Assembly: GCF_030070105.1 (NCBI RefSeq)
Contig: NZ_JASJOO010000006.1
Span: 62,001 to 126,000 of the forward strand
Length of the DNA stretch: 64,000 bases
Direction: 5' to 3'
From: Bermanella sp. WJH001
GTDB taxonomy: Bacteria > Pseudomonadota > Gammaproteobacteria > Pseudomonadales > Oceanobacteraceae
Position 1 is the first letter of the stretch. Every line of letters begins with the position of its first letter. This document shows positions 9,407 through 44,349 of the stretch, piece by piece. A program made the translations under genes and the position numbers. Below the pieces are notes generated by a model. The model was not told the DNA's origin and did no database searches. It saw nothing but the letters and a program-made list of their open reading frames with translations.

Positions 9407-11263
9407 ATGAGTTTTGCCTTAAAGGACGCACGAGTTGAAAAAGACATATTTGTTAAGCGCGCTTATCTAGCGGGCTTATTTGTGTTTTTGTTGGTGTGTG
9501 CCTTAGCGGCTCGTATGACCTTCCTACAGATTACCCAGCATGACCTCTATGCCAGTAAGTCCGAAAACAACCGTGTTCAATTAAAAACTGTCGAACCAAT
9601 CCGCGGCCTGATCTTTGATCGTAACGGTGTGCTGCTGGCTGAGAATTTACCCAGCCACAGTTTAACCATCGTGCCTGAGCGTGTGGACGATATGAGTAAG
9701 ACCTTAGGCTTAATAGACGCGCTTATTGGCATCACGTATGAAGAGCGTGAAAGTTTTGAAAAGCGTGTTAAATCTTACCGACGCCCTTACGAAGCCATCC
9801 CACTTAAATATCGCCTTAACGAAACCGAGATCGCTAAAATCAGTGTGAATGATTATTTTTTAGCCGGTGTACAGGTAGAGGCAGAACTTGTTCGACATTA
9901 TCCAATGGGTGAGGATTTTGCCCATGTGCTTGGGTATGTGGGGCAAATGAATGAATCAGAAAAAAAGCGTGTAGACCCCGTTCAATATAAAGTCACCCGA
10001 CGCATCGGTAAAATTGGCATCGAGCGCTATTACGAAAAAGAACTGCACGGCCAAGTGGGTTATCAAAAAGTTGAAACCAACGCGCAAGGGCGAATTTTAA
10101 AGGTCATAGAAAAGCAAAGCTCGATTCCAGGAAAAAACATCATTCTGAATTTAGATGCACGCTTGCAACGTGCCGCCATGGAAGCATTCAAAGGTCGTCG
10201 TGGCTCTTTAGTGGCAATGGAGCCAAAAACCGGCGGGGTGTTGGCCATGGTGTCGAGCCCATCGTTTGACCCCAATTTATTTGTGAATGGCATTAGTTAT
10301 AAAGATTACAACGCATTAAGAGACTCACTGGATACCCCATTATTTGATCGTGCGACCCGTGGGCAATATCCCCCAGGCTCCACCATGAAACCGTTTATTG
10401 GTTTGGGTTTCTTAGAAAGTGGCGTGACCAACTGGCAAGAAGAAATTAAAGATCCAGGTTGGTACATGCTTGAAAATGATGAGCGCGTTTATCGAGATTG
10501 GAAGCGACAAGGGCATGGAGAGCATATCAGCCTGCGTGATGCCATTATTCAAAGTTGTGATACCTATTTTTATGAAATGTCTTTTAGAGCCGGTATCGAC
10601 AACCTTCATCCGTTTTTATCCCAGTTTGGTTTTGGCCAAAATACCGGTTTAGATATTGGCAATGCCTTGCCTGCTTTATTACCCGATCGAGAATGGAAAA
10701 AAACATACCGAGGGCGCTCATGGTACGCCGGTGACACCCTTAACCTTGGTTTGGGGCAAGGCTTCATGCTCGCGACGCCTTTGCAGCTTGCCACCGCTAT
10801 GAATGTGTACGCGGCAAAAGGTGAATGGCATCGGGCAAAACTGGTTCAGTTGATTGATGGCCAACCTTTATTAGAAGATACCAAGCCTGAAAATATCGTA
10901 CTTAAAAATGCTGATAACTGGAATAAAATGAACTACGCAATGGAAGGCGTGATTAAGCACTATTTAGGTACCGCCAAAGGCCTACAGCGAAACCTGAAAT
11001 ACAGGCTTGCAGGTAAAACCGGTACCGCACAAATAGTGGGTATCAAACAAAACGAAGAGTACGACTCGGAAGCGCTACTTGAGCGCCAGCGTGATCACGC
11101 TTTGTTTGTCAGTTTTGCACCGGTTGAAGACCCTAAAATCGCAGTGGCGGCGGTTGTTGAAAATGGTGAATCCGCTGGTACAACCGCAGCTCCAATTTCT
11201 AAAAAAGTAATTGATATATTTTTGAATGACGATCAGCCAAAGGGTATTGCCTATGATTTCTAA
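9407..11263 (+). CDS. mrdA: Penicillin-binding protein 2 (transpeptidase)
   Basis: PBP2 is the elongation-specific peptidoglycan transpeptidase that works with RodA to keep rod shape. The 618-residue protein has one N-terminal membrane helix (residues about 18-40), a dimerisation domain and a transpeptidase domain with SxxK in PPGSTMKPF (about 330), SCD in IIQSCDTYFYEM, and KTG in LAGKTGTAQIVG (about 545). Length is usual. It is followed by rodA after 52 bp, the standard pairing. Confidence 0.96.
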   Translation: MSFALKDARVEKDIFVKRAYLAGLFVFLLVCALAARMTFLQITQHDLYASKSENNRVQLKTVEPIRGLIFDRNGVLLAENLPSHSLTIVPERVDDMSKTLGLIDALIGITYEERESFEKRVKSYRRPYEAIPLKYRLNETEIAKISVNDYFLAGVQVEAELVRHYPMGEDFAHVLGYVGQMNESEKKRVDPVQYKVTRRIGKIGIERYYEKELHGQVGYQKVETNAQGRILKVIEKQSSIPGKNIILNLDARLQRAAMEAFKGRRGSLVAMEPKTGGVLAMVSSPSFDPNLFVNGISYKDYNALRDSLDTPLFDRATRGQYPPGSTMKPFIGLGFLESGVTNWQEEIKDPGWYMLENDERVYRDWKRQGHGEHISLRDAIIQSCDTYFYEMSFRAGIDNLHPFLSQFGFGQNTGLDIGNALPALLPDREWKKTYRGRSWYAGDTLNLGLGQGFMLATPLQLATAMNVYAAKGEWHRAKLVQLIDGQPLLEDTKPENIVLKNADNWNKMNYAMEGVIKHYLGTAKGLQRNLKYRLAGKTGTAQIVGIKQNEEYDSEALLERQRDHALFVSFAPVEDPKIAVAAVVENGESAGTTAAPISKKVIDIFLNDDQPKGIAYDF

Positions 11264-17566: not shown

Positions 17567-18481
17567 ATGGCTAAACTTGGCAAGCGTTCAAAAGTATCAC
17601 AGAAACGCCCTTCCTATAAAAAAATCATCAAACAGCAAGAAAGCCAACCAGAGAACATTGTCGATCAAATCGCGGCATTGGAAGCTCTATTAGGTGGCGG
17701 TAGTGATGATTCTAAGGAAGTGGTTACAGCCAAAGCTGAGCCTCAAAAAGACCCTGAGGAACAAAAGCGCTTAGAAGAAGAGCGTGCAGCACGTAAGGCA
17801 GAAATCGAAGCACTTGAAGCGGAGCGTGCAAAAGAACGCGCCTCTCGCGAAGAAGAGCGTCGTAAGCTACAGCAAGAGTTGATCAAGCAGCAAGAAGAGC
17901 GTGAAGCTCGTTACAAAGAAGAACAAGAGAAGCTTAAGGCTGAACAGCAAGACAAGAAAGAGTTGAAAAAACAACTTGTCGAAGCTAAAAAAGAACTTAA
18001 GCGTCTACAAAACTTAGATCGTATCGGTAAGCTAGATGCTGTGCAGAAAAAACGCATGGCTGAAATTGCTGAATTCGTTAAAAGTGGTGTAGCACCAAAA
18101 GCAGCGGCCAAAAAAGCTGAGCCAGCTAAAGCTGAAAAAGCAGCTAAAGCGCCAGCTAAAAAGACCACCGCTAAGAAAACAACGGCGAAGAAAACCACTG
18201 CTAAAAAAGCAGCAGTGAAAGCAGACGACGAAACCGCTGAGAAGAAAACCACAGCGAAGAAAACCACTGCTAAAAAGTCGACAGCTAAGAAAACCACAGC
18301 TAAAAAGACTACTGCCAAGAAAACCACAGCGAAAAAGTCCACAGCTAAGAAAACCACAGCTAAAAAGACAACCGCTAAGAAAACGACGGCCAAGAAAACC
18401 ACAGCTAAAAAGACAACCGCTAAGAAAACCACAGCGAAAAAGTCCACAGCTAAGAAAACCACAGCCAAGAAGACTAAATAA
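17567..18481 (+). CDS. Histone H1-like / AlgP-type lysine-alanine repeat protein
   Basis: A 304-residue highly basic protein. Residues about 1-60 are a short unique head, 60-165 a charged coiled coil rich in Glu, Lys and Arg, and 185-304 a tail made almost wholly of KKTTA pentapeptide repeats with KKSTA variants. The tail resembles eukaryotic histone H1 tails and the AlgP (AlgR3) protein of Pseudomonas, which acts in regulation of alginate genes. DNA binding and nucleoid organisation are the likely role, by inference. The repeated DNA can change copy number by slippage in 15-bp steps without breaking the frame. Confidence 0.88.
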   Translation: MAKLGKRSKVSQKRPSYKKIIKQQESQPENIVDQIAALEALLGGGSDDSKEVVTAKAEPQKDPEEQKRLEEERAARKAEIEALEAERAKERASREEERRKLQQELIKQQEEREARYKEEQEKLKAEQQDKKELKKQLVEAKKELKRLQNLDRIGKLDAVQKKRMAEIAEFVKSGVAPKAAAKKAEPAKAEKAAKAPAKKTTAKKTTAKKTTAKKAAVKADDETAEKKTTAKKTTAKKSTAKKTTAKKTTAKKTTAKKSTAKKTTAKKTTAKKTTAKKTTAKKTTAKKTTAKKSTAKKTTAKKTK

Positions 18482-25533: not shown

Positions 25534-26253
25534 GCTTTGAAAAGAGTTGATTTATTTAAATATCATGCAGTTTCTATTCGGTTTAAATTGATGATAAAGC
25601 TAAGAATTATTGCATTGAATTGATAAAAAAGTGCTATGGGATGATCCATTTTCTGATCTTAAGGTTCATTAATATTGCATTCAGTGTATCGAGTTTAATG
25701 TTTATTTGTAAATGATAGGGAGCTTAAGTCTTAGGTGGTTCAAAGTGATTTTTAGAGAGGTGAGGTGTAAATAAGACAGTAAAATTTGTATGAAAAACAA
25801 TCAGCGTGTCTTTTTTTAGTGAGGTTGTTCACAAAAATAGGGTGTGCAAATAGAAGATAAGTGTGTTTTTTGTTCGATTTTGTGGCCTGTGGATTATTTA
25901 ATTTGTTTGAATTTGCACAAAAATATTCCACCATAATTTAGAAAGTATGGGCAATACTGGTGCAAGTAATTGAGGGTTGTTTTCTTTTTGAGCAGTAGTG
26001 TAAGCATTATCTTACACTGTTATAGGCTGATAAATTAATATGCTAAAAGTGTTGTTTAATTGTTACCTTTTCGTTTGAAGTGTAATTTTTTGAAACTATA
26101 ATGCCAGCATTAAATTTATGAACTGCCGATCAATGTCTTCTCAAGGAGATTGCGCGAAGCTGATCTGTATTAATCATTCTATTTTCGTAGATAAGTACAA
26201 TATTAAATAATTGATATTGAAGTACTGCGGATTCATCATTGACGAGATATAAC
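25534..26253. other. Long A/T-rich intergenic region upstream of the capsule locus
   Basis: About 720 bp without a credible gene separates proB from kpsF. It is strongly A/T-rich, which suits a regulatory region silenced by H-NS-like proteins. A good promoter sits at 26075-26102. I looked for the ops/JUMPstart core GGCGGTAG that recruits RfaH in E. coli group 2 capsule operons and did not see it. The small frames that remain open here look random. Confidence 0.55.
26075..26102 (+). promoter_or_regulatory. Sigma-70-like promoter of the capsule locus
   Basis: TTGAAG and a perfect TATAAT are 16 bp apart, about 150 bp before kpsF. This gives a long 5' untranslated leader. It is the best match in the 720-bp gap and probably drives kpsF-kpsM-kpsT-kpsE-kpsD. 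Confidence 0.6.
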
Positions 26254-27231
26254 ATGGCTGTTGTTTTAAACTCAATCAAAGCTACCCCTTCATTAAAACA
26301 ATCTGTTGTTGAGGCTCATAACTCCGTTTTAGAGCAAAGCCGTCAGATTCAACGTTTAGCTCAGTTTATCGATGAACAGTTTAGATTAGCGGTTGACGCT
26401 ATTCATAAATGCAAAGGCCGTTTGATTATTTCTGGCATGGGTAAATCAGGCTTAATCGGTAAAAAAATCGCTGCCACTATGGCGTCCACTGGAACATCGT
26501 CTTTTTATGTGCATCCGGGAGAAGCATTTCATGGTGACTTAGGGATGATTCGACCAGAAGATATCGTACTGTTAATTACTAACAGTGGAGAGACAGACGA
26601 AGTAATCAAATTAATTCCATCTCTAAAGAATTTTGGTAATACCATCATTGGTATGACGGGCAAGATGGACAGTACGTTAGCCCAATATGCAGATATTACG
26701 CTTAATGTCTCAGTAGAGCGTGAAGTTTGTCCTAATAACTTAGCCCCTACTGCGTCCACCACTGCGACACTAGTAATGGGTGATGCACTTGCTGTAGCGC
26801 TGATTCACATGAGTGATTTTAAACCAATGGACTTTGCCATGTTTCACCCAGGTGGCAGCCTAGGCAGAAAACTATTAACCAAAGTGAAAGATGTCATGGT
26901 GAAAAGTGATTTACCGTTTGTTAATCCTGATGACACCATGCACAGCGTTATTATGACCATGACAAACAGCCGCTTAGGTTTAGCCATGGTGATGGAAGAC
27001 GATGAATTAATTGGTGTCATTACAGATGGAGACTTACGTAGAGCCTTGGCCGAAGGGGTTGATTTAAAAGTCGCCACAGCTAAGCAAACCATGTCATTTG
27101 CACCTATCACAATTAAAGAAGAGGCCATGGTTGCTGATGGTGAAGAGCAAATGCGTGCAGCGCAGATTAAGCAAATCATTGTTAAAAATAGTGAAGATCG
27201 TGTAACAGGTGTATTAGAGTTTTTTCAATAA
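26254..27231 (+). CDS. kpsF: Arabinose-5-phosphate isomerase KpsF/KdsD
   Basis: KpsF converts ribulose 5-phosphate to arabinose 5-phosphate, the sugar precursor of Kdo. The 325-residue protein has an N-terminal SIS domain (GMGKSGLIGKKIAATMASTG at about 60-80, ITNSGETDEV) and two CBS domains (about 205-325). Its place at the head of the capsule genes marks it as the capsule copy; a housekeeping kdsD would lie elsewhere. The in-frame TTG at 26239 is a weaker start choice than ATG 26254. Confidence 0.93.
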   Translation: MAVVLNSIKATPSLKQSVVEAHNSVLEQSRQIQRLAQFIDEQFRLAVDAIHKCKGRLIISGMGKSGLIGKKIAATMASTGTSSFYVHPGEAFHGDLGMIRPEDIVLLITNSGETDEVIKLIPSLKNFGNTIIGMTGKMDSTLAQYADITLNVSVEREVCPNNLAPTASTTATLVMGDALAVALIHMSDFKPMDFAMFHPGGSLGRKLLTKVKDVMVKSDLPFVNPDDTMHSVIMTMTNSRLGLAMVMEDDELIGVITDGDLRRALAEGVDLKVATAKQTMSFAPITIKEEAMVADGEEQMRAAQIKQIIVKNSEDRVTGVLEFFQ

Positions 27232-31539: not shown

Positions 31540-32940
31540 ATGAGTTTTAAGCGGAAGCTGAGAAAGCTTATTAATGATCCAGCTTTATTTTTTTCAGATT
31601 CAAAGATGGTTAAAAAAATTGCTGGTGATGATGTGAAGGAAATTTCAAAAGTGATACAAGTAGCACCTAAAACTAAGCCAAAAACAAACTTGGATAAAGC
31701 CTCAACAAATTTTAAATTAACAGTAGAAGATACATCTATCCGATCAATGAAGATGATAGAGCTGTCAAAAAATAGCCTTGATGAAGGGGATATAAAATCT
31801 GCTATAACTTTTGCTGATAGGGCGGTAGCTTTAGATAAATTTAATATATTTGCATATATAGCATGCTGCCGAGCTAGAGAAAAAGAAGAAGGTCAGCCGC
31901 TTGTTATGGAGTATGCGAAGTTTATTTATGAATTATTTCCGAATAATAACTTATCTAAACTAAATTATGCTCGTTGTGCGAAAGCCCATGGAATATACGC
32001 AGAATCTATAAAGTCTATTTACATGGATTTATTTGATAGTGATGCAAGCGAGGAAATACTCACTGAATATATACAGTATATGTGGGAATGCAAGGAAGCA
32101 GAAAAAAGCATTGCGATTCTATTAATAGATAGAATGCAGTCTCATGATTATTCCGATAAAACTAAAGCTTTAATCGGGGCATATTTATTTGATGCGGGTC
32201 TAAAAAAAGAAAGTCTTAAGTTAGCGAGGATCCTTATAGATAATAAATCTGCAAGATACGTTAAAAAATACAGCGCATATTATTATTATTTGAATTCATA
32301 TTACGCTATTGCAAAAACCGAATCGGATAAAAAAAATATATTGATGTATGAAAAAATAGACAAAGGAGAGGATGAGTTACTAGATAGAATAAAACTTGCA
32401 AATAGAGTGGTGATTGTCGGTAACTCTCCTCGTGAAATAGGTAAGTATAAGGGAGCTGATATTGATAGCTCTGACTTAGTGATACGATTTAATAACTTTC
32501 CAGAAACAGAAGAAATTAGAAAGGATTATGGGTCAAAATGTGACATATGGGTTCGAAGTATCGGTTCATGGGTTGATGTAAGAGATGAACGAAATTTTAA
32601 GCATGTTGTAATAAGTGGTACAAATCTATTGTCAAGAGGCTTTAACTTAAATCATTTTTTGCATTTTAATGAGATTGATACAGAGATTAGTGTATTTAAT
32701 CCCCAGTATCACTATGAACTCATTCAGCTGCTTGAAGGTCCTCCTTCAGCTGGGTTAATGCTTTTGTATATTGTATATCGCCTCAAGGGTAGATTAATAG
32801 AGAGCGATATATTTGGTTTTGGTTTTGTCGACCAGTTAGAGGAAGGTGTTGTAAATATTGGTAAATCGCCGGCTGGTGTTAGGCATCATTGGCAAGCAGA
32901 ACTAGATGTTTATCAGTCTATGTTAAAAGGGAGTTTGTAA
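31540..32940 (+). CDS. GT29 sialyltransferase-like glycosyltransferase with TPR region
   Basis: This 466-residue protein probably adds a CMP-activated acidic sugar to the capsule. Residues 1-22 carry the KLRKLINDPALFFSDSK motif shared with KpsE. Residues about 65-275 form TPR-like helices. The C-terminal part has all three sialyltransferase motifs: L (VIVGNSPREIGKYKGADID...DLVIRFNN, from 291), S (PPSAGLMLLY...DIFGFGF, 401-429) and VS (HHWQAE, His449-x4-Glu454). GT29 enzymes use CMP-sialic acid, and no neuA/neuB genes are present here, so the donor may be Kdo or the product of the neighbouring aldolase set. The DNA is A/T-rich. Confidence 0.8.
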   Translation: MSFKRKLRKLINDPALFFSDSKMVKKIAGDDVKEISKVIQVAPKTKPKTNLDKASTNFKLTVEDTSIRSMKMIELSKNSLDEGDIKSAITFADRAVALDKFNIFAYIACCRAREKEEGQPLVMEYAKFIYELFPNNNLSKLNYARCAKAHGIYAESIKSIYMDLFDSDASEEILTEYIQYMWECKEAEKSIAILLIDRMQSHDYSDKTKALIGAYLFDAGLKKESLKLARILIDNKSARYVKKYSAYYYYLNSYYAIAKTESDKKNILMYEKIDKGEDELLDRIKLANRVVIVGNSPREIGKYKGADIDSSDLVIRFNNFPETEEIRKDYGSKCDIWVRSIGSWVDVRDERNFKHVVISGTNLLSRGFNLNHFLHFNEIDTEISVFNPQYHYELIQLLEGPPSAGLMLLYIVYRLKGRLIESDIFGFGFVDQLEEGVVNIGKSPAGVRHHWQAELDVYQSMLKGSL

Positions 32941-32941
32941 G

Positions 32942-35422
32942 ATGCTTTTCTCAATTTCATCACTGTTTAAGTCAAACCAAGAAGATAACTATATAGCTGG
33001 AGATAGAGAAAAGAAAACAATTTTATTGTTGGATTTAGATCCTGAACTTCCTCGTCTGTGTGCAATCTTTCAAGAGCTTAATCACCCTGTAGTTATAATC
33101 GCTGTAAACAGTTGTTTTACCGCTTCTAAAATTTATGATGCTGGACAGCGTGTTACTAGAGGAAAAATTTCAGAGAAAATGCTTGCTTATTCTACTTTCT
33201 CATCAATGTTATTTGTTTCATCGGATGTGAATTCACACTTGAGAGAAGTTGTCGATGTATCAAATACATTAGGGATCAAAACGACTCTTTTGTCATTTGA
33301 GTCAATAGGCGATGGTAGTGGTAAATACAGGAATGTAAGAGAAGGATATGATTACCCGATTACTGATAGAGCTTTATTTGTTGATCAGAATCTTATGCGT
33401 GAAGTCGCAAGTCGTAATAAAGGTCCTTCAAGCTATTTTTGTGTAGGAAAAAAAGATTGGTTTATTGTTTCTAAAGAGCACAAGAAATTTGTATTGTCCG
33501 ATTATAATTGTTGCTGTTTGATCGAGAGCGCCCCTGTTGATTATATTGGATGGATAATTAAACATGGCTTAGAAAATAATATTAAAATATTTGTAAGGCA
33601 AGATATCTTTAAAAAAGCTGAGCGCGATGCTTACTCTAAATATTGCACATTTATACCATCTGGTGAGAAATATAAAACTATTTATAGTGCTGCTCATATT
33701 ATTTATAAGGAAGGGAATATTGTTCAGCATGGAGAAGAAGAGAGTTCATATCTCACTTTGCCAGAAGCGCTATACCATCTTTCTTCAGTGAACAAGGATA
33801 CTATTAAACAACATCTGACTTTTTCTTTGGATATTGATGAGCTTTCAAGGCTTATCCCTATTTCTTATGATAAACCTAAATATACTACATTGGTTTTAAA
33901 CTTGAAGAGAGGTGATAACTTATTTGGGAGTTTAAATTGGTACCCTAAATTATTAGGCTGTAATAACCATGTTATATATCGAGGCGGTGACGTGGATGGT
34001 GATGTCTATGCATCTTTTGGGTTGCCTGATGATAAAACACAAGAAAAATTAATTGCAATAGCAAATAAAAATAGCGCACCTTATTATAACATTGAAAATG
34101 GCTTCCTCGCTTTTTCTGGTATCGCTTTGTTAAATTCAGCCAAGTCACACTCATTATTACTTGATAGTAAATCAATGTATTTTGATGGTATATCTGGATC
34201 GAGTATTGAAGATAATATTTTATTTTCAGATGATTTGACCCACGAAGAAGAAGTTAAAATAAATTCATTGATAGAGCGGATTACAGTCCATAATTTATCG
34301 AAGTATAACCATGCACCACAAGTCAATCCAATATTGCCCGGCGACAATGCAGATAAAGTGCTGATTGTTGATCAGCGTTACGCTGATAAGAGTATTGGTT
34401 ATGCTGGAGCAACAGAGGAAACGTTTAATCAAATGCTGATGGATGCTTATAAAGAACATCCGAATTCAGACATAATCATTAAAGTTCACCCTGATGCACT
34501 TACAGGTTTGGTTAAGGGCCACTTTGATAAGTCTGTAGAAAATATGCCTAGGGTGTACTTATACTCAGAAGATATCAATCCGGTGTGTTTACTTAAATCA
34601 ATTCATTCTGTTTATGTAGTGTCTTCTCAGATGGGCTTTGAGGCGTTGATGTTGAATAAGCCTGTGCATGTTTATGGCAAAGCTATCTATGCTGGCTGGG
34701 GATTAACGATTGACCGAACAATTATTGAAAGAAGAGGTCAAGAGAGAAGGAGTATACAGCAACTATTTAAAGCCCTTTATATGGATAATGTCCCTTATAT
34801 TGATCCTGTATCTGGAGATCAAATAAGTATTGATTCATATTTGGATGAATTGATAAGTGTAAGAGGGTCAACTAATGCAAATTCAAAAGTGATTAATGTT
34901 GGTGATGGCCAAATTGTCTATAACTCAGTAGTGGATCGTTTTTATTTAGAGAAAGATGGAGTAATTACATCAAATACTGTTCTAAATGCCTTATATAACT
35001 TACCGACTAGCGCTTCGATTAAAACGGTTTTATGCAGTCTTAAAACTACTCGACAATTTCCACCTTCAAGTGATTTATTAGAATATATGGTTGATTTCTT
35101 TCAAGGTGAAATGAATTTAAGCTCACTAGAAAATAAATTAATTGATTTTAATAAGAAGAATGATGTGTTCAATTTATTAAAAGTTTTTAGCCGAGAGTTT
35201 AAGCAAGAGTCGATTATTCGTATAGCAATGGATGCTTGTAAAAAATCAAAAAGTGCCATTTTTGTCGAAAAATTTTTATATTGGAGTATAAGTGTATTGG
35301 CTAAAATGGGAGTTGAAAAAAATCAACTTTATTTCTTGATTTCCGAATCTGATGCTCTAGATGTAAATAGTAAGAATAAACTTATAGAATTTAGTGAAAT
35401 AGTCTCAGGTGAAGCCTGTTAG
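32942..35422 (+). CDS. KpsC-like capsule glycosyltransferase with extra domains
   Basis: An 826-residue protein. The middle (about 370-640) matches one KpsC module: YYNIENGFLAF, LDSKSMYFDG, VDQRYADKSIGYAG (about 477), IIKVHPDALTG (about 513) and SSQMGFEALMLNKPVHVYG (about 561) align with kpsC at 44473. KpsC modules are beta-Kdo transferases, so a Kdo or similar sugar may be used. The first 290 residues are unrecognised and may be a second, diverged transferase; the last 180 are helical. No signal peptide is seen. It starts 1 bp after the GT29 gene. Confidence 0.75.
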   Translation: MLFSISSLFKSNQEDNYIAGDREKKTILLLDLDPELPRLCAIFQELNHPVVIIAVNSCFTASKIYDAGQRVTRGKISEKMLAYSTFSSMLFVSSDVNSHLREVVDVSNTLGIKTTLLSFESIGDGSGKYRNVREGYDYPITDRALFVDQNLMREVASRNKGPSSYFCVGKKDWFIVSKEHKKFVLSDYNCCCLIESAPVDYIGWIIKHGLENNIKIFVRQDIFKKAERDAYSKYCTFIPSGEKYKTIYSAAHIIYKEGNIVQHGEEESSYLTLPEALYHLSSVNKDTIKQHLTFSLDIDELSRLIPISYDKPKYTTLVLNLKRGDNLFGSLNWYPKLLGCNNHVIYRGGDVDGDVYASFGLPDDKTQEKLIAIANKNSAPYYNIENGFLAFSGIALLNSAKSHSLLLDSKSMYFDGISGSSIEDNILFSDDLTHEEEVKINSLIERITVHNLSKYNHAPQVNPILPGDNADKVLIVDQRYADKSIGYAGATEETFNQMLMDAYKEHPNSDIIIKVHPDALTGLVKGHFDKSVENMPRVYLYSEDINPVCLLKSIHSVYVVSSQMGFEALMLNKPVHVYGKAIYAGWGLTIDRTIIERRGQERRSIQQLFKALYMDNVPYIDPVSGDQISIDSYLDELISVRGSTNANSKVINVGDGQIVYNSVVDRFYLEKDGVITSNTVLNALYNLPTSASIKTVLCSLKTTRQFPPSSDLLEYMVDFFQGEMNLSSLENKLIDFNKKNDVFNLLKVFSREFKQESIIRIAMDACKKSKSAIFVEKFLYWSISVLAKMGVEKNQLYFLISESDALDVNSKNKLIEFSEIVSGEAC

Positions 35423-35431
35423 GAGAAAATT

Positions 35432-36982
35432 ATGTTATTGGATTGCACCTTCAGAGATGGTGGTTATTACACTAACTGGGAATTCGACGATAATCTTGTA
35501 CGTTCGTATTTGCGTGCGGTGGAGCAAGCAGGTGTTGATGTTGTTGAAATAGGTTATAGAGCATTAAATAATAAATCATGGAGTGGGTATTTGTTTTATA
35601 CCCCGGATGAATATTTGAACAAAGTTGCGATAAACTCTACTGTTAAATTAGCTGTGATGGTTGACTCTGGGGATATTATCTCCGAAGGTCTGGATAAAGC
35701 ATTGAGTTTCTTTCCTGCATCCCATGAAAAAATTTCTGTCGTTCGTGTTGCTGCTCATAAGCATGAAGTTGAAAAGTCGATTCCGTTTTTGAGTGAATTA
35801 AAGAAAAGAGGATATCAAACTTGTTTGAATCTAATGGGTTTTCAGCAATACACTGAAATAGAATTAAAAGAGCGATTAAAAACACCATTGTTTGATCAAA
35901 GTGTTGATGTTTTATATTTTGCAGATAGTTTTGGTTCTATGTCTATTGAGGATGTTCGTAAATCGGTATCGCTTCTAAAAAGATTTTGGGATAAAGAAGT
36001 AGGATTTCATGCTCATAATAACCAAGGGGCTGCTCTTAGTAATGCCCTTGTTGCCATTGAAGAGGGGGTTGAATGGATTGACTCAACAGTTACAGGTATG
36101 GGACGTGGAGCTGGCAATCTTGCAACTGAAGAAATTCTCATACAATTAAGTCGTCAAAATGCTAAGTATGACCCTGTTCCTATGATGGGAATAATTCATG
36201 ATTATTTTGAACCATTAAAACGTAAGGAATCTTGGGGTGCTTCAATTGCTTATGGTATAGCTGCATTAAATGGTATGCACCCTACTTATATTCAGAAATT
36301 GTATAAAAAAGATTACAGTAGCAAGCAAATGATTGATTGCTTACGTTACTTAGTTGCAAGGGGGGCTTCTAAATTTAATCAGGATTTATTTAAAGATGCT
36401 CAAAATCATATAGTTTTATCATCTATGTCTGGTTCTAAGCGCTTTCCATTTGTTGAAAAAAAGAAGGTTTTATTGGTAGGAGCTTCTGCTTATAAAGATT
36501 CTTATAAAGAGGAGTTTAAGCTGCTGGTTGAATCCGGTGACTATTTTGTAATCTCATTAAATGACCAGGGTATTGAGCCTAAATATATTGATTTGTATGT
36601 CACGATTAATAGTCGACGATTTAGAGAATCTAAAGATCTCTACTCTAGTATTCGAGAAAAGGTATTGCTGACTCCACAAGCAAATGAAGATGCAGAGGAA
36701 GGTTATTTTATTGAACCTATGTCTTATGGTATTGGTCTTTTTTCATATAAAAGTGACTTTATTATTCCGGATAATGACGTTTTTTGGTTTGGGTTGGCAG
36801 TAGCGCTTAAAATGAAGCCTGAACAGATTGTAATGTTTGGTATTGAAAAGCCTTATAGAGACGAAAGTTTTGATGACTTACTAACAAATGCATTAGGTGG
36901 AGTAGATTGCATAGCACTTGGTAAAACCACTTTTGGCGTAAAATCAGTTTCAATTGTTGGTTTGTTGCAGGGTGTTATTTAA
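35432..36982 (+). CDS. DRE-TIM (HMGL-like) aldolase with extra C-terminal domain
   Basis: A 516-residue two-domain protein. Residues 1-300 are a DRE-TIM metallo-aldolase: the DCTFRDGGYYTNW motif at residue 4 supplies the catalytic Arg and metal Asp, and HAHNNQG (about 193) supplies the two metal histidines; TGMGRGAGNLATEE follows. This is the 4-hydroxy-2-oxovalerate aldolase/HMG-CoA lyase superfamily, which makes or breaks 4-hydroxy-2-keto acids from pyruvate-type donors. Residues about 340-516 form a Rossmann-like domain (KKVLLVGASAYKDSY) that I cannot name. With a cytidylyltransferase and a phosphatase next to it, it may build a 2-keto-3-deoxy sugar acid. Confidence 0.8.
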   Translation: MLLDCTFRDGGYYTNWEFDDNLVRSYLRAVEQAGVDVVEIGYRALNNKSWSGYLFYTPDEYLNKVAINSTVKLAVMVDSGDIISEGLDKALSFFPASHEKISVVRVAAHKHEVEKSIPFLSELKKRGYQTCLNLMGFQQYTEIELKERLKTPLFDQSVDVLYFADSFGSMSIEDVRKSVSLLKRFWDKEVGFHAHNNQGAALSNALVAIEEGVEWIDSTVTGMGRGAGNLATEEILIQLSRQNAKYDPVPMMGIIHDYFEPLKRKESWGASIAYGIAALNGMHPTYIQKLYKKDYSSKQMIDCLRYLVARGASKFNQDLFKDAQNHIVLSSMSGSKRFPFVEKKKVLLVGASAYKDSYKEEFKLLVESGDYFVISLNDQGIEPKYIDLYVTINSRRFRESKDLYSSIREKVLLTPQANEDAEEGYFIEPMSYGIGLFSYKSDFIIPDNDVFWFGLAVALKMKPEQIVMFGIEKPYRDESFDDLLTNALGGVDCIALGKTTFGVKSVSIVGLLQGVI

Positions 36983-36983
36983 A

Positions 36984-37697
36984 ATGAAAAAAAAAGTTTA
37001 TATACCGGCTAGATTTAAATCTTCACGTTTACCGGGTAAGCCGCTTTTGAAAATTGCAGGTAAAGAGATGATCCTGCATGTTTGTGAGCGTGTTGCTGAG
37101 GCAGTCGGCAGTGATAACTTGGAGGTTCTTACTGATGATGAAAGAATTTATAACCTTGTAGTAGCTGCTGGTTTCTCTGCGAGTATGACCCCAGATGACT
37201 GTTTAACAGGTACGGACAGAATTGCCGAAGCCCTTAAACATAACGATATTGATGTGGCTATCAATGTTCAGGGTGATGAACCGCTGATTCCTATAGAAGA
37301 TGTTAAGCGTATTTTTGATATGGCAAATGAAAGTGAGATCTTGAATTGTTATACCGCCATAACAGGAACTTCTGACTTGAACCGTTCAACCTTGCCAAAA
37401 GTCGTTTTTGATGAAGAAAATTATTTGCTTTATATGTCTAGAGCTCCAATACCAAATAATAAAGATTTAACAGGTGATGAAGGTTATAAACAAGTATGTA
37501 TTTATAGCTTTCCACGTAGAGCCTTATCTTTATATGGCTTAGGCTCGGTGAAGACTCCACTAGAGTCAATAGAGGACATTGAAATCCTGAGGCTCCTTGA
37601 AAAAGGTTGGAAAATAAAAATGATTGAGGCGCAAAGTACAATTGCAGTGGATGTACAGGCAGATCTAGATAAAGTTGAGTCAATTATTAATGACTAA
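36984..37697 (+). CDS. KdsB-like CMP-ketosugar cytidylyltransferase (second copy)
   Basis: A 237-residue homologue of CMP-Kdo synthetase. It has the CTP-binding IPARFKSSRLPGKPL at the N-terminus, GTDRIAEAL, and the metal-binding VQGDEPLIP. It differs from the housekeeping-type KdsB at 42372 in the substrate loop: TPDDCLTGTDR here against TREDHESGTDR there, so the conserved His and Ser are lost. It therefore probably activates a related but different keto acid. It starts 1 bp after the aldolase stop and overlaps the phosphatase gene by 8 bp, a tight set of three. Confidence 0.85.
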   Translation: MKKKVYIPARFKSSRLPGKPLLKIAGKEMILHVCERVAEAVGSDNLEVLTDDERIYNLVVAAGFSASMTPDDCLTGTDRIAEALKHNDIDVAINVQGDEPLIPIEDVKRIFDMANESEILNCYTAITGTSDLNRSTLPKVVFDEENYLLYMSRAPIPNNKDLTGDEGYKQVCIYSFPRRALSLYGLGSVKTPLESIEDIEILRLLEKGWKIKMIEAQSTIAVDVQADLDKVESIIND

Positions 37698-38310
37698 ACG
37701 AATAAATATTTTTGACTTTGATGGAACAATAGCTGAATCAAATTTATTAAAAACGGAAGCTTTTAAGCAGTGTGCTATTGAGTTTGGTGATGAAGTGGCT
37801 GATTGGTTTGTACGATATCACCAAGAAAATGGAGGAGTAACACGTCAAGTTAAAATAGAAGCACTATGTCAAAAAATTAATAACATGAACTTATATAATG
37901 ACTTGATGAATAAATATGAACGCTACTTAAGTGATGAGTGGCTTAACTGTCCGTTGTTGCCAGGTTTTAGGGGCTATATTGAAACACTGCCTGGAGTGCA
38001 CTTAATTCTAAGTGGCGGATCAAAATCTGAAATTGAGCATTACTTAGAAGAGAATCATTTAAAACAATATTTTAAAGAAGTATACGGTAATCCCATAGAT
38101 AAAAGCACCAATCTTGAGGTGATTCAAAATAAATATCTTCAAAATGATGTGGAAGTCTTTTTTTATGGCGATAGTAAATTAGATTTTCAGTTGTCAAGTA
38201 AAGTATGCGCTAATTTTGTTTTTGTTTCAGGTGTAAGTGAATGGAAACCATCATTAATAGAATCACACCAGTTTAGTATGTGTGTAGAAGATTTTATTGG
38301 ATTAATATGA
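37690..38310 (+). CDS. HAD-family phosphatase
   Basis: A 206-residue haloacid-dehalogenase hydrolase with motif I FDFDGTIAES (nucleophile Asp about residue 8), a small helical cap (about 15-85), motif II LILSGGSKSE, and motif IV FFYGDSKLDFQ. In Kdo synthesis the HAD enzyme KdsC removes the phosphate before CMP activation; this one has a different HAD subclass cap but the same place in the gene order. Its natural substrate is inferred, not shown. It overlaps the cytidylyltransferase by 8 bp. I set the start at ATG 37690. Confidence 0.82.
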   Translation: MTKRINIFDFDGTIAESNLLKTEAFKQCAIEFGDEVADWFVRYHQENGGVTRQVKIEALCQKINNMNLYNDLMNKYERYLSDEWLNCPLLPGFRGYIETLPGVHLILSGGSKSEIEHYLEENHLKQYFKEVYGNPIDKSTNLEVIQNKYLQNDVEVFFYGDSKLDFQLSSKVCANFVFVSGVSEWKPSLIESHQFSMCVEDFIGLI

Positions 38311-38483
38311 ATTCGAAACACTTCTAACAGTTAATTTTAAAATCGAGATATTTTTTGTTTACCTACTTTAAATGCTAGCTCAATATGTTTTATTCAATCT
38401 GAAGCTTTTAGCAATAAAGAGTGAATGAAAGATTATTTTAAATCTCAATGAAATGTATAGCTAAGATGCTACAAAGGGTTGAC

Positions 38484-39650
38484 ATGAATCAAAAATCATA
38501 TTTGAACGGTTTAGTATGTGTTAAGGATAAAGGCTCGGAAATTAGTGTGTTATGTTTTTCTGGTCCTGTACCAGGTGAGCGCTTCCATTTTTATAGGTCT
38601 TTTGATCAAGAGCATGTCAATGTTATCTATGTTAAGGAGTCATTACCAGGGTGGTTTCAAAATGGACTTCCTGGTGCACGAAGTTATGTTGGCCTAAAAG
38701 AATTTTTAATAGATTTAATTGATGGTTTGGGTTCTAAAAAGTTATACTGTTTTGGTGCTTCAATGGGGGGGTATGCTGCTCTTCTCTATGGGGCGTTACT
38801 TAAAGCTGAGAGGATATTAACTTTTGGAGCAAGAACCTATATACATCCTAATTTCATAACAAATTCTCGTATTATAGCGAATAAAGGGGCTACAGAATCT
38901 ATTAAACGGCTTTACCCTATTATTCAGGATTATGTTAATACAGGTGGTTTGATTATTAATGTATGTGGCGAGGATGAATGGTTAGATATTTTTCATTTAT
39001 CAAGACTTTCTAAGCTGGATGGAGTCAAATCTTATACCTTGCCAAATGCTGGCCACAATGTTGGTGCTTGGTTAAAGGCTCACTATTATTTAGACGAGTT
39101 TCTTGTTCAGGGTTTACTTTATGGTAATTGTGAGATTATTGAGCCTTTAAATTCGTTTATTTTTTCTAATACAAAAGCGCTTGATTGCGTTGTTGAATTT
39201 ATCAAGAAATATCACTCTGGTGATCTGAATGCTTGTAAGAATGTTTTAGATCACTTAAATGAGTTATTTCCATTGTGGTCCTTAGGTCATTTTCATAGAG
39301 CTCTAGTTGCGGCTGAGTCCGGCGAAATAGAGTTATCTATAAAGAGTAATCAAAAAAGTTTGCAGCTTGATCCTAGTTCTTTGAAGTCTCTGTATCTGTC
39401 TGGAAAACTTAATATGCAATCTTCAAGATGGGTTGAAGCAGTAAGAATATTTCAAGATGTAGTGACCAAGAAGCCAACTTTAGATCGACCCATAGTATTG
39501 CGGAAAGCATATTATGGTTTAGCTTATTCTTTACAGATGGTTTCAAATCATGATGAAGCATTAAAATATTTAGAGTTAGGAAATAATGTGATTCCTGGTA
39601 AGCAAACAGAAATTGATGATTTATCTTTTAAGAAGTCAGTGCTTATTTAG
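38484..39650 (+). CDS. Alpha/beta-hydrolase with C-terminal TPR repeats
   Basis: A 388-residue cytoplasmic protein. The first 220 residues look like a serine hydrolase: nucleophile elbow CFGASMGGYAALLYG (Ser93), an acidic stretch VCGEDEWLD, and the catalytic-type His in PNAGHNVGAW (about 191). Residues about 235-388 are TPR-like helices (LGHFHRALVAAESGEIELSI). Substrate is unknown; an esterase acting on capsule substituents or a scaffold are options. ATG 38484 with AAAGGG upstream is chosen over 38448. A run of seven G (38765-38771) falls on the elbow codons. A second hydrolase of related type lies at 41152. Confidence 0.72.
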   Translation: MNQKSYLNGLVCVKDKGSEISVLCFSGPVPGERFHFYRSFDQEHVNVIYVKESLPGWFQNGLPGARSYVGLKEFLIDLIDGLGSKKLYCFGASMGGYAALLYGALLKAERILTFGARTYIHPNFITNSRIIANKGATESIKRLYPIIQDYVNTGGLIINVCGEDEWLDIFHLSRLSKLDGVKSYTLPNAGHNVGAWLKAHYYLDEFLVQGLLYGNCEIIEPLNSFIFSNTKALDCVVEFIKKYHSGDLNACKNVLDHLNELFPLWSLGHFHRALVAAESGEIELSIKSNQKSLQLDPSSLKSLYLSGKLNMQSSRWVEAVRIFQDVVTKKPTLDRPIVLRKAYYGLAYSLQMVSNHDEALKYLELGNNVIPGKQTEIDDLSFKKSVLI

Positions 39651-41025: not shown

Positions 41026-41151
41026 AGCTACCCCTTTTAATAATTTAAGAAATGATAAAATGTATCCTCTTTTATAAGGCAAATCTTTTATTTTATTTTT
41101 GTTCTTTTTTTGTGGTATAGTTATCAAAAATATTTATTTTTGGGTGATCAT

Positions 41152-42273
41152 ATGCAGGAAGCATTAAATTCAGCTGTTGTGGAATTTTTAAAAGAAGGTA
41201 TTACTCAGAATGGGGTTTTAGAATTTTCTGGTTTTCATATCGATTTTAGGTATAGAAAGGGTAACAAAGAATTTTTACTCGTTGGCTTTGATGGATGGGA
41301 TCCAGAAAAAAGTTATAGCCATGCTCCAACTTATAGTAAATGGCGATACCTTAAGAGTATGGATTGTAATTGTTTATATATCAGTCATCCTATTTTTCAG
41401 GGAAAGCGTATTTCTCATTCAATCTACACTGCACTGCTAAATGCTCTTAAAATCCAAAATATTGTTTTTCATTTAATTAGACTGGCCGTAAATTCATTAA
41501 AACTAAACACTGCAAATATCATTTTCTATGGTGGTTCTTCGGGAGGGTTTTCAGCTCTACAATACGCGTTACACTTTAAAAATTCTAAATGTTGCACTAT
41601 TAACCCTGAAACGAGTGTGCTTGCGCATAACCTAGATATTATAAACAAATATAAGCATTTAGTTTTAAATCATAATGCTAATAATAAGAGTGTAGCTCGT
41701 CTTAATTTGAATAATCATGTTGTCAAAAAAAATATTGGGCTGCCCAATATTATAATTCATCAAAACCTACTTGATGAATTTTATTATGATAGTCATTTTT
41801 TAGGTTTTAGTGAGATATTTAGAAGTAGAGTGAAAGAGGTTGGTACTGGAAGTCTCGCTGTTATTGAGTATGTATCTGACGTTGGGCATACCAGCGAAAT
41901 TAGTAACTCTTTGTTAGGTGCAAGTCTATTAATGCTTATGAATACGAATAGACCAGCTACTTTGACTGCGGACTGTAAGCTAAGATTAATTTATAAAAAA
42001 ATATCTATGTTAAGTTTAGATATTATCGTAACGATTAAATTTTCACCTGCGAATGCATTGCCAGTTAATAGTATTTTTTTGTCCTTTAGTCGTAATAAGT
42101 TGTATGCCGGAATTGAGATTGTTAATAGAGTGTCACTTGAAGACTTTGAACGCGATGGTGATTTGTTAATTTGGAGTGGTAAGCTTGACTCAAATCAAAA
42201 CTATGTATATTTGCAATCTGATGAGGATCTTTCTGGATTATTGGTAAATATTGATGAGATTTTTGAGAGCTAG
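41152..42273 (+). CDS. Second alpha/beta-hydrolase-like protein
   Basis: A 373-residue protein with a serine-hydrolase elbow FYGGSSGGFSALQYALHF (Ser about 129) and a late His in SDVGHTSEIS (about 246). A further beta-rich part (about 265-373) follows. It resembles the hydrolase at 38484 in the arrangement of elbow and His, but lacks TPR repeats. I cannot assign a substrate; esterase activity on capsule material is only a guess. The ATG at 41152 is preferred since GGGTGA lies just upstream, while the frame to 41110 runs through A/T-rich leader. Confidence 0.68.
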   Translation: MQEALNSAVVEFLKEGITQNGVLEFSGFHIDFRYRKGNKEFLLVGFDGWDPEKSYSHAPTYSKWRYLKSMDCNCLYISHPIFQGKRISHSIYTALLNALKIQNIVFHLIRLAVNSLKLNTANIIFYGGSSGGFSALQYALHFKNSKCCTINPETSVLAHNLDIINKYKHLVLNHNANNKSVARLNLNNHVVKKNIGLPNIIIHQNLLDEFYYDSHFLGFSEIFRSRVKEVGTGSLAVIEYVSDVGHTSEISNSLLGASLLMLMNTNRPATLTADCKLRLIYKKISMLSLDIIVTIKFSPANALPVNSIFLSFSRNKLYAGIEIVNRVSLEDFERDGDLLIWSGKLDSNQNYVYLQSDEDLSGLLVNIDEIFES

Positions 42274-42371: not shown

Positions 42372-43148
42372 ATGAATTATAAAATAGTCATCCCTTCTCG
42401 ATTTGGTTCATCCCGCTTACCCGGTAAACCATTAAAAGACATCAATGGTAAACCTATGGTTTGGCATGTGTACCAGCGTGCCTTAGAAACTAATATTGGT
42501 GTGCAGAATATTGTGGTGGCCACAGACCACCAAGGTATTTTTGATGTGTGTACTCAATTTGGTATTCAGGCGGTCATGACCCGTGAAGATCATGAATCTG
42601 GTACTGATCGCCTAGCAGAAGTTGCCGATATCATGGGCTGGGGAGATGACGACTTGGTGGTGAATTTACAAGGCGATGAGCCTTTGATTCCGCCTGAATT
42701 AATTGCGCTTGCAGCAAAAACATTGAGCGATTCACCACTGGCGGGCATAGCGACCTTAGGCTGCCCTATTAATGATGAAGCGGATATTAATGATGCAAAC
42801 TGTGTGAAACTTGTTGCTGACCATTCTGGTCGAGCTATGTATTTCTCTAGGGCTGCTATTCCGTTTGCCCGTGATGGCTTTGATGCGAAATTTATGACGG
42901 GCAAGGACACTCCTTGGCTACGCCATATTGGTATGTACGCGTACCGTGTATCAGCCCTTAAAAAAGTCGCAGCCATGCCAATGGCGATGATTGAAGGTTT
43001 AGAAAAGCTAGAACAGTTACGTGCTCTGTGGAATGGTGTGCATATTCAGGTGGCGGCCATTGAGTCGGCACCGGGCCATGGTGTTGATACGCAAGCTGAT
43101 CTTGGTCGTGTTCGTCAATTAATGTCTGAGATGGCTATTGAGTCATAA
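42372..43148 (+). CDS. kdsB: CMP-Kdo synthetase
   Basis: KdsB activates Kdo with CTP to give CMP-Kdo, the donor for lipopolysaccharide and for the capsule poly-Kdo linker. The 258-residue protein has IPSRFGSSRLPGKPL, TREDHESGTDRLAEV and VNLQGDEPLIPPE, all canonical. Base composition returns here toward that of the flanking chromosome, unlike the second KdsB-like gene at 36984. It lies 160 bp before kdsA with a long hairpin between. Confidence 0.94.
   Translation: MNYKIVIPSRFGSSRLPGKPLKDINGKPMVWHVYQRALETNIGVQNIVVATDHQGIFDVCTQFGIQAVMTREDHESGTDRLAEVADIMGWGDDDLVVNLQGDEPLIPPELIALAAKTLSDSPLAGIATLGCPINDEADINDANCVKLVADHSGRAMYFSRAAIPFARDGFDAKFMTGKDTPWLRHIGMYAYRVSALKKVAAMPMAMIEGLEKLEQLRALWNGVHIQVAAIESAPGHGVDTQADLGRVRQLMSEMAIES

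Positions 43149-43298: not shown

Positions 43299-44349
<1,051 letters not shown>

Follow-up and report, generated by a model that had tools for sequence, protein, structure and literature searches.

Why should a bacterium whose capsule locus already holds a canonical kdsA and a canonical kdsB, the genes for making and activating 3-deoxy-D-manno-octulosonic acid (Kdo), carry a second, KdsB-like cytidylyltransferase gene wedged between those of a metallo-aldolase and a phosphatase? The question is raised by a 64,000-nucleotide stretch (hereafter the window) of the 3.62-Mb, six-contig genome of Bermanella sp. WJH001, in which these three genes, here called the trio, stand in a kps-type capsule locus. 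An earlier note on this DNA had suggested that the trio serves a sugar acid other than Kdo, and this suggestion is supported by gene linkage, gene fusion, coevolution, the branching of the KdsB tree, changes in the sugar site, and the presence of the module in genomes with no synthase dependent on phosphoenolpyruvate (PEP) over cut-off. The trio is thus probably a complete making and activating module for a 3-deoxy-2-keto sugar acid distinct from Kdo.

A predicted module for a CMP-activated sugar acid

The features composing the trio are as follows.

35432..36982, + strand: DRE-TIM metallo-aldolase (ATG 35432, stop 36982, 516 aa; catalytic barrel at about residues 1-330)
36434..36979, + strand: C-terminal domain of the aldolase (about residues 335-516), predicted Maf/GT42/MptE-like fold
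36984..37697, + strand: KdsB-like cytidylyltransferase (ATG 36984, 237 aa; CTP_transf_3)
37690..38310, + strand: HAD-IA (haloacid dehalogenase) phosphatase (ATG 37690, 206 aa; HAD_2)

The tight packing described earlier is confirmed by the open reading frame coordinates: a gap of 1 bp separates the aldolase and KdsB-like genes, and the KdsB-like and HAD genes overlap by 8 bp. The identification of the third gene as a HAD phosphatase likewise held (HAD_2, E 2.3e-12).

Linkage, fusion, coevolution, residue changes and folds were observed directly, whereas each chemical step of the following scheme is inferred. Firstly, the DRE-TIM barrel would join pyruvate enolate to an aldose phosphate and so form a 4-hydroxy-2-keto-3-deoxy acid phosphate. 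Secondly, the HAD enzyme would strip the terminal phosphate, freeing a hydroxyl for ring closure. Thirdly, as the retained residues for CTP and Mg binding suggest, the KdsB-like enzyme would form the cytidine monophosphate (CMP) derivative, and KpsC-like and GT29-domain enzymes would then place the acid in a capsule whose export depends on an ATP-binding cassette (ABC) transporter. Such a scheme resembles the Kdo pathway (KdsA-KdsC-KdsB) in its order of C-C bond formation to a keto-acid phosphate, dephosphorylation by a HAD enzyme and activation with CMP, and in having a KdsB homologue as its third enzyme. It differs in that the trio begins with a DRE-TIM metallo-aldolase rather than the PEP-dependent KdsA, in that the sugar site of the KdsB homologue is changed, and in that its HAD protein is of the HAD_2 type and 206 aa long, as opposed to the 173-aa KdsC-sized HAD of a Bacillus locus described below (L090; retrieved loci carry L numbers and genomes G numbers).

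Linkage and fusion in bacteria and viruses

A search seeded with the aldolase family gave 80 bacterial loci, the best 80 among 582 confirmed stretches and thus a biased set; their hosts range from marine gammaproteobacteria and alphaproteobacteria (SAR11, for example) to Prochlorococcus and bacilli. A cytidylyltransferase of the KdsB or NeuA type lies somewhere in the fetched stretch in 72 of the 80 loci, a HAD homologue in 62, and all three gene types together in 59, so the arrangement is not a matter of chance. Among the eight loci with no cytidylyltransferase call, L027 and L041 have one close by (identified by eye), L065 has one at 4.5 kb, and the contig ends near the aldolase in L049, L097 and L098.

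Because these 80 loci are best matches, samples of 369, 398 and 293 genomes were used as a check. The two-domain aldolase occurs in 17 of these genomes (the host included; G158 and G363 are congeners), and in 16 of the 17 a cytidylyltransferase of the KdsB or NeuA type lies within the flank of about 1.5 kb, separated from the aldolase by one gene at most (HpcH in three genomes, a HAD gene in one). A wider fetch of the 17th also revealed a cytidylyltransferase, here separated from the aldolase by an acyltransferase-like gene. Short aldolases, which lack the C-terminal domain, had a cytidylyltransferase in the same flank in none of six genomes. Within the order-level sample, no aldolase match at E 1e-40 was found in the sole genome of the same genus or in eight genomes of the same family, and the segment is therefore sporadic. 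Searched at blastn sensitivity, E. coli has no match to the trio DNA, and no description of the module was found in the published open-access papers searched.

Short aldolases were seen in other gene settings. Those on Paraburkholderia and Mesorhizobium plasmids (L008:9926-13806 and L009:7929-11215) adjoin genes for a short-chain dehydrogenase/reductase and a HAD protein; no cytidylyltransferase was found in either locus, an annotated phosphoserine aminotransferase lies near the aldolase in L008, and the chemistry is perhaps a related one feeding an amino acid product. At L017:2433-3068 and L018:2446-3063, short aldolases are followed by what appears by eye to be an aldolase of the 2-keto-3-deoxy-6-phosphogluconate type, which suggests a different, perhaps catabolic, role.

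Among 62 viral loci, near-duplicates counted, 40 encode aldolase and KdsB as a single protein, and a separate KdsB-like gene is present in eight more. Free-standing MptE-like genes lie nearby in 26 of the 62. A phage origin of L107, L134 and L137 is supported by PHROGs matches to a clamp loader or exonuclease nearby; the two fusion proteins tested had no PHROG match. Six named phage records were matched, all with identities below 30% and coverages no higher than 56%. In L137 the aldolase-KdsB fusion is followed by an overlapping HAD gene. The same viral contig (L137:3537-10344) carries NeuB, NeuA, a GT29-like gene, the fusion and the overlapping HAD gene in one run, two CMP-ulosonate modules side by side.

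The cytidylyltransferase and its sugar site

The KdsB-like protein of the window is a member of CTP_transf_3 (Pfam, E 3.1e-37) that falls short of the NCBIfam kdsB equivalog cut-off (136.6 vs 155.2 bits). Its substrate loop, which the earlier note had singled out as altered, does indeed differ (LYMSRAPIPNNKDLTGDEGYKQVCIYSF vs MYFSRAAIPFARDGFDAKFMTGKDTPWLRHIGMYAY). In E. coli KdsB, His181 and Gln211 are what we take to be contacts to Kdo; in the window protein these are replaced by Gln and Ile, respectively, while the residues for CTP and Mg binding are kept. The same replacements recur among aldolase-adjacent KdsBs, defined as those within 900 bp of the aldolase: the His181 position holds Gln in 52/53 bacterial and 45/46 viral sequences, and the Gln211 position holds Ile in 50/53 and 41/46. 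Canonical KdsB copies from the same genomes kept both His and Gln in all 16 cases (L178, being the Prochlorococcus trio gene itself, is not in this set). R10, R15, K19, D95 and D219 in A. aeolicus numbering are given as the CTP- and Mg-binding residues in PMC3149649. All five are conserved in every KdsB-like row, 58/58 bacterial and 46/46 viral.

Phylogeny and covariation point in the same direction. In a tree of 101 KdsB rows, retained after a 90% identity filter, 17 canonical KdsBs form one side of a branch with support 100/92, and a second branch (99/91) sets 77 aldolase-linked KdsBs, the window copy among them, apart from the canonical sequences and seven others. A tree group labeled odd, comprising nine rows, was picked after the motif had been seen and includes the aldolase-adjacent L056, L117, L141 and L143; when assigned by adjacency, L141 and L143 group with the linked rows, while L056 and L117 do not. 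Distances among aldolases and among KdsBs are correlated across 50 loci (Mantel r 0.658; no permutation out of 5000 reached this value), in a run from which no KdsB lying within 900 bp of an aldolase was left out; without L056, r is 0.659 with 49 loci.

The aldolase and its C-terminal domain

The Pfam HMGL-like match of the aldolase (E 3.8e-23) spans residues 2-244 of 516, with the C-terminal extension outside it, in agreement with the extra domain proposed previously. HMGL-like is the sole family over the Pfam cut-off in this protein, so that the first enzyme is not of the PEP-dependent KdsA type; the kdsA of the locus stands apart, at 43308. The nearest structure, by sequence (E 1.2e-49; 32% identity over 303 columns) as well as by Foldseek rank (first), is 3dxi, a structural-genomics entry for the N-terminal domain of BVU_2661 from Bacteroides vulgatus, in which that domain alone was solved and which is titled "putative aldolase", with no function given. 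R8, D9, H193 and H195 are invariant in all 76 aligned sequences and align with R17, D18, H200 and H202 of 1nvm (alignment A2 holds 67 of the 75 full-length aldolase rows and the window copy).

The barrel, the Arg, the Asp and the HxH metal site are thus common to the window aldolase and DmpG/BphI, the 4-hydroxy-2-oxovalerate (HOA) aldolases. The window enzyme differs from these in its C-terminal domain, in its biosynthetic locus, in having no partner dehydrogenase in the scanned segment, and in carrying Tyr12 (Tyr in 75/76) at the position after the RDG motif where HOA aldolases such as DmpG have His21, presumably their catalytic residue.

The C-terminal domain is predicted to have the fold of the Maf/GT42 CMP-sugar transferases, an assignment that is new here. 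It matches the Maf/GT42-type fold and carries a GxGPG-like loop and an invariant Asn (N377, 76/76). Compared with the Maf glycosyltransferase 5mu5 and the GT42 enzyme CstII, it differs in being fused to an aldolase and in being short (about 200 aa); the fold is also common to pyrophosphokinases and SteA. Most likely, judging from the predicted fold, the domain would bind a CMP-sugar, as in feedback sensing, or would pass the product on.

Kdo and nonulosonate synthases in genomes with the module

In 16 of 20 trio genomes a canonical KdsB is encoded elsewhere; G749 and G764 have a second KdsB-like gene below cut-off beside a kdsA over cut-off, and in G750 and G756 the trio copy is the sole KdsB-like gene. 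G750, the Gram-positive Rossellomorea aquimaris, has no KdsB over cut-off and none besides that of the trio, no NeuB match, and no KdsA over cut-off (127.5 vs 314 bits, to be read with the fact that the control Bacillus subtilis also scores and only 4/14 controls pass). G756 is a single-cell genome of Prochlorococcus and may be incomplete; KdsA found no match there, but NeuB is present. In the Gram-positive Bacillus sp. ISL-41, one region (L090:2300-11067) holds a KdsB-like gene, kdsA, a SIS-CBS isomerase, the KdsC-sized HAD gene, three MptE-like genes and a full trio.

A second comparison is offered by the sialic acid pathway, NeuB-(phosphatase)-NeuA, which shares the activation of an ulosonate with CMP; an enzyme of the NeuA type is found in 21 of the 80 bacterial loci. 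The module differs from that pathway in that no NeuB stands in the window trio and no NeuB match was found in 13 of the 21 genomes with a NeuA-type partner. Since genomes without NeuB have no evident PEP-type nonulosonate, the aldolase is the obvious supplier for the NeuA-type partner there.

The surrounding capsule locus and candidate users of the product

The remaining features of the locus relevant to the question are these.

26239..27231, + strand: kdsD/kpsF-type isomerase (SIS + CBS; PF01380 + PF00571)
31540..32940, + strand: GT29 (sialyltransferase-family) domain protein with a TPR-like (tetratricopeptide repeat) N-terminus (PF00777, E 2.2e-6)
32942..35422, + strand: KpsC-like glycosyltransferase (826 aa; one Capsule_synth module detected, PF05159, E 3.6e-37)
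42372..43148, + strand: canonical kdsB (TIGR00466, 267 bits, over cut-off; sugar-site His and Gln kept)
43308..44147, + strand: canonical kdsA, Kdo8P synthase (NF009109, 476 bits, over cut-off)

The presence of canonical kdsA and kdsB in the same locus, asserted in the earlier note, is established by these curated NCBIfam cut-offs. The isomerase is one that we take, from its family, to provide arabinose-5-phosphate for Kdo. ABC-transporter and export genes, identified by eye, lie upstream of the trio, and the order from there is the GT29-domain gene, the KpsC-like gene, the trio, two hydrolase-like genes, an acetyltransferase-like gene, kdsB, kdsA and kpsC/kpsS-like genes. The two hydrolase-like genes (38448-39650 and 41110-42273) encode GxSxGG-type motifs and look by eye like alpha/beta-hydrolases; Pfam finds TPR only in the first and nothing in the second. 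A 304-aa protein at 17567-18481 ends in a long lysine-rich repeat of the KTTAKK type.

The KpsC-like and GT29-domain enzymes just upstream are, on sequence evidence, the likely users of the CMP-ulosonate in this capsule. The former, lying between the GT29-domain gene and the trio, was beyond what the earlier note could tell, as was the fold of the aldolase's C-terminal domain; it matches 6mgb KpsC (E 8.9e-43 over residues 344-641), and solved KpsC modules are retaining beta-Kdo transferases. The GT29-domain protein has weak PDB matches to ST3Gal enzymes and designed TPR proteins. Its gene does end 2.5 kb upstream of the trio, as had been stated, while its link to the trio is the weakest part of that proposal: the search for co-occurrence that the earlier note had called for recovered the trio itself in 59/80 loci, and detected GT29-like genes in 3/80 bacterial and 13/62 viral loci. 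GT29 as a constant partner is accordingly rejected and, given its rarity elsewhere, the users probably differ by locus. GT29-domain and KpsC-like genes are again found as a pair close to the trio in L067, and in L095 (L095:11027-13648) a GT29 domain and a KpsC-like Capsule_synth domain are joined in an 873-aa protein encoded directly after a trio.

Contrary evidence and alternative explanations

Several observations weigh against the proposed module. The KdsB-like protein of the window passes two NCBIfam subfamily models named for Kdo cytidylyltransferase (255.1 vs 255 and 213.3 vs 193 bits), and the linked KdsBs of Prochlorococcus (157.7) and Shewanella (155.6) narrowly exceed the kdsB cut-off of 155.2 bits. 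Among aldolase-adjacent KdsBs, L056 keeps the His and L117 has Ala, an exception to the His-to-Gln rule, and both are among the seven others on the canonical side of the tree; the KdsB-like protein beside kdsA in Bacillus ISL-41 (L090:3099-3839) lacks both His and Gln. Because of these three exceptions, the residue change alone is no proof of another substrate. In the aldolase, the catalytic His of HOA aldolases is replaced by Tyr, identity to the 75 full-length relatives is at most 33%, the C-terminal domain lacks several near-invariant residues, and pyruvate is a putative donor on the basis of family membership. HAD genes were undetected by the seeds used in 18/80 loci, some of them cut by contig ends, and NeuB is present in 8/21 NeuA-type genomes. 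Lastly, at least nine bacterial loci contain a second pyruvate-type aldolase, mostly with a cytidylyltransferase: of the HpcH/HpaI type in L014, L016, L023, L027, L051, L072, L085 and L195, and of the dihydrodipicolinate synthase (DHDPS) family in L041:12191-13198. The viral locus L101 also has an HpcH gene (9711-10628).

Because of these second aldolases, the DRE-TIM enzyme may not be the synthase in such loci; a further acid may be produced by the additional aldolases, or the DRE-TIM enzyme may serve a different purpose in these loci. Extended to the module as a whole, this would mean that the DRE-TIM enzyme makes a side intermediate such as an aldehyde or a keto acid and that the acid to be CMP-activated comes from another aldolase or synthase, as the position of the HpcH/HpaI or DHDPS-family genes, between or beside those of the aldolase and the cytidylyltransferase, would allow. 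We consider this rather unlikely, given that HpcH went undetected in the remaining loci and in the window, that KdsB is fused to the DRE-TIM aldolase itself and not to another synthase, and that no NeuB match was found in 10 of the 18 NeuA-type genomes without a neighbouring HpcH.

The trio enzyme might instead be a second, capsule-dedicated CMP-Kdo synthetase, with the aldolase and phosphatase unrelated to it and merely sharing its operon. Duplicate kdsB genes devoted to capsules (kpsU) are known, and such a role would agree with the intact CTP and Mg residues, the two Kdo-named models passed, the kdsA and kdsD-type genes in the locus, and the L090 protein, which shows that loss of His and Gln is possible beside kdsA. 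Against this stand the score of the window copy below the kdsB equivalog, the position of most linked KdsBs on a branch of their own with both His and Gln replaced, the 40 viral fusions, the tracking of aldolase distances, and the occurrence of the trio in Rossellomorea, which lacks a KdsA over cut-off, and in the Prochlorococcus single-cell genome, where KdsA found no match. A redundant CMP-Kdo synthetase is, on this balance, unlikely.

That the enzyme is an ordinary catabolic 4-hydroxy-2-oxovalerate aldolase, in a capsule locus by chance, is very improbable and was rejected: although HOA aldolases are the closest well-studied enzymes (DmpG, E 2.9e-22) and the Arg and metal ligands are kept, it scores 109 bits where TIGR03217 requires 286, Tyr replaces the catalytic His, the ten segment proteins scanned with Pfam include no aldehyde dehydrogenase family, and the recurrent partner is a cytidylyltransferase.

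Implications

Beyond a module for an acid other than Kdo, a broader proposal can be put forward tentatively: the trio may represent a third way to CMP-ulosonates, one that needs no PEP, is widely distributed among bacteria and occurs as a fusion in viruses, and in which the bacterial C-terminal domain senses or transfers the end product and the chain length differs from that of Kdo and the nonulosonates. If the reading of the trio as such a making and activating module is true, diverse bacteria, as well as some viruses, produce an acidic surface sugar whose genes are now annotated as belonging to Kdo synthesis or valerate catabolism, and a main class of activated sugars would have a new first step. 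The occurrence of kdsB-like genes in organisms without Kdo genes would be accounted for, a missing building block would be predicted in capsules or other surface glycans, and the viral fusion would provide a ready enzyme for making it.

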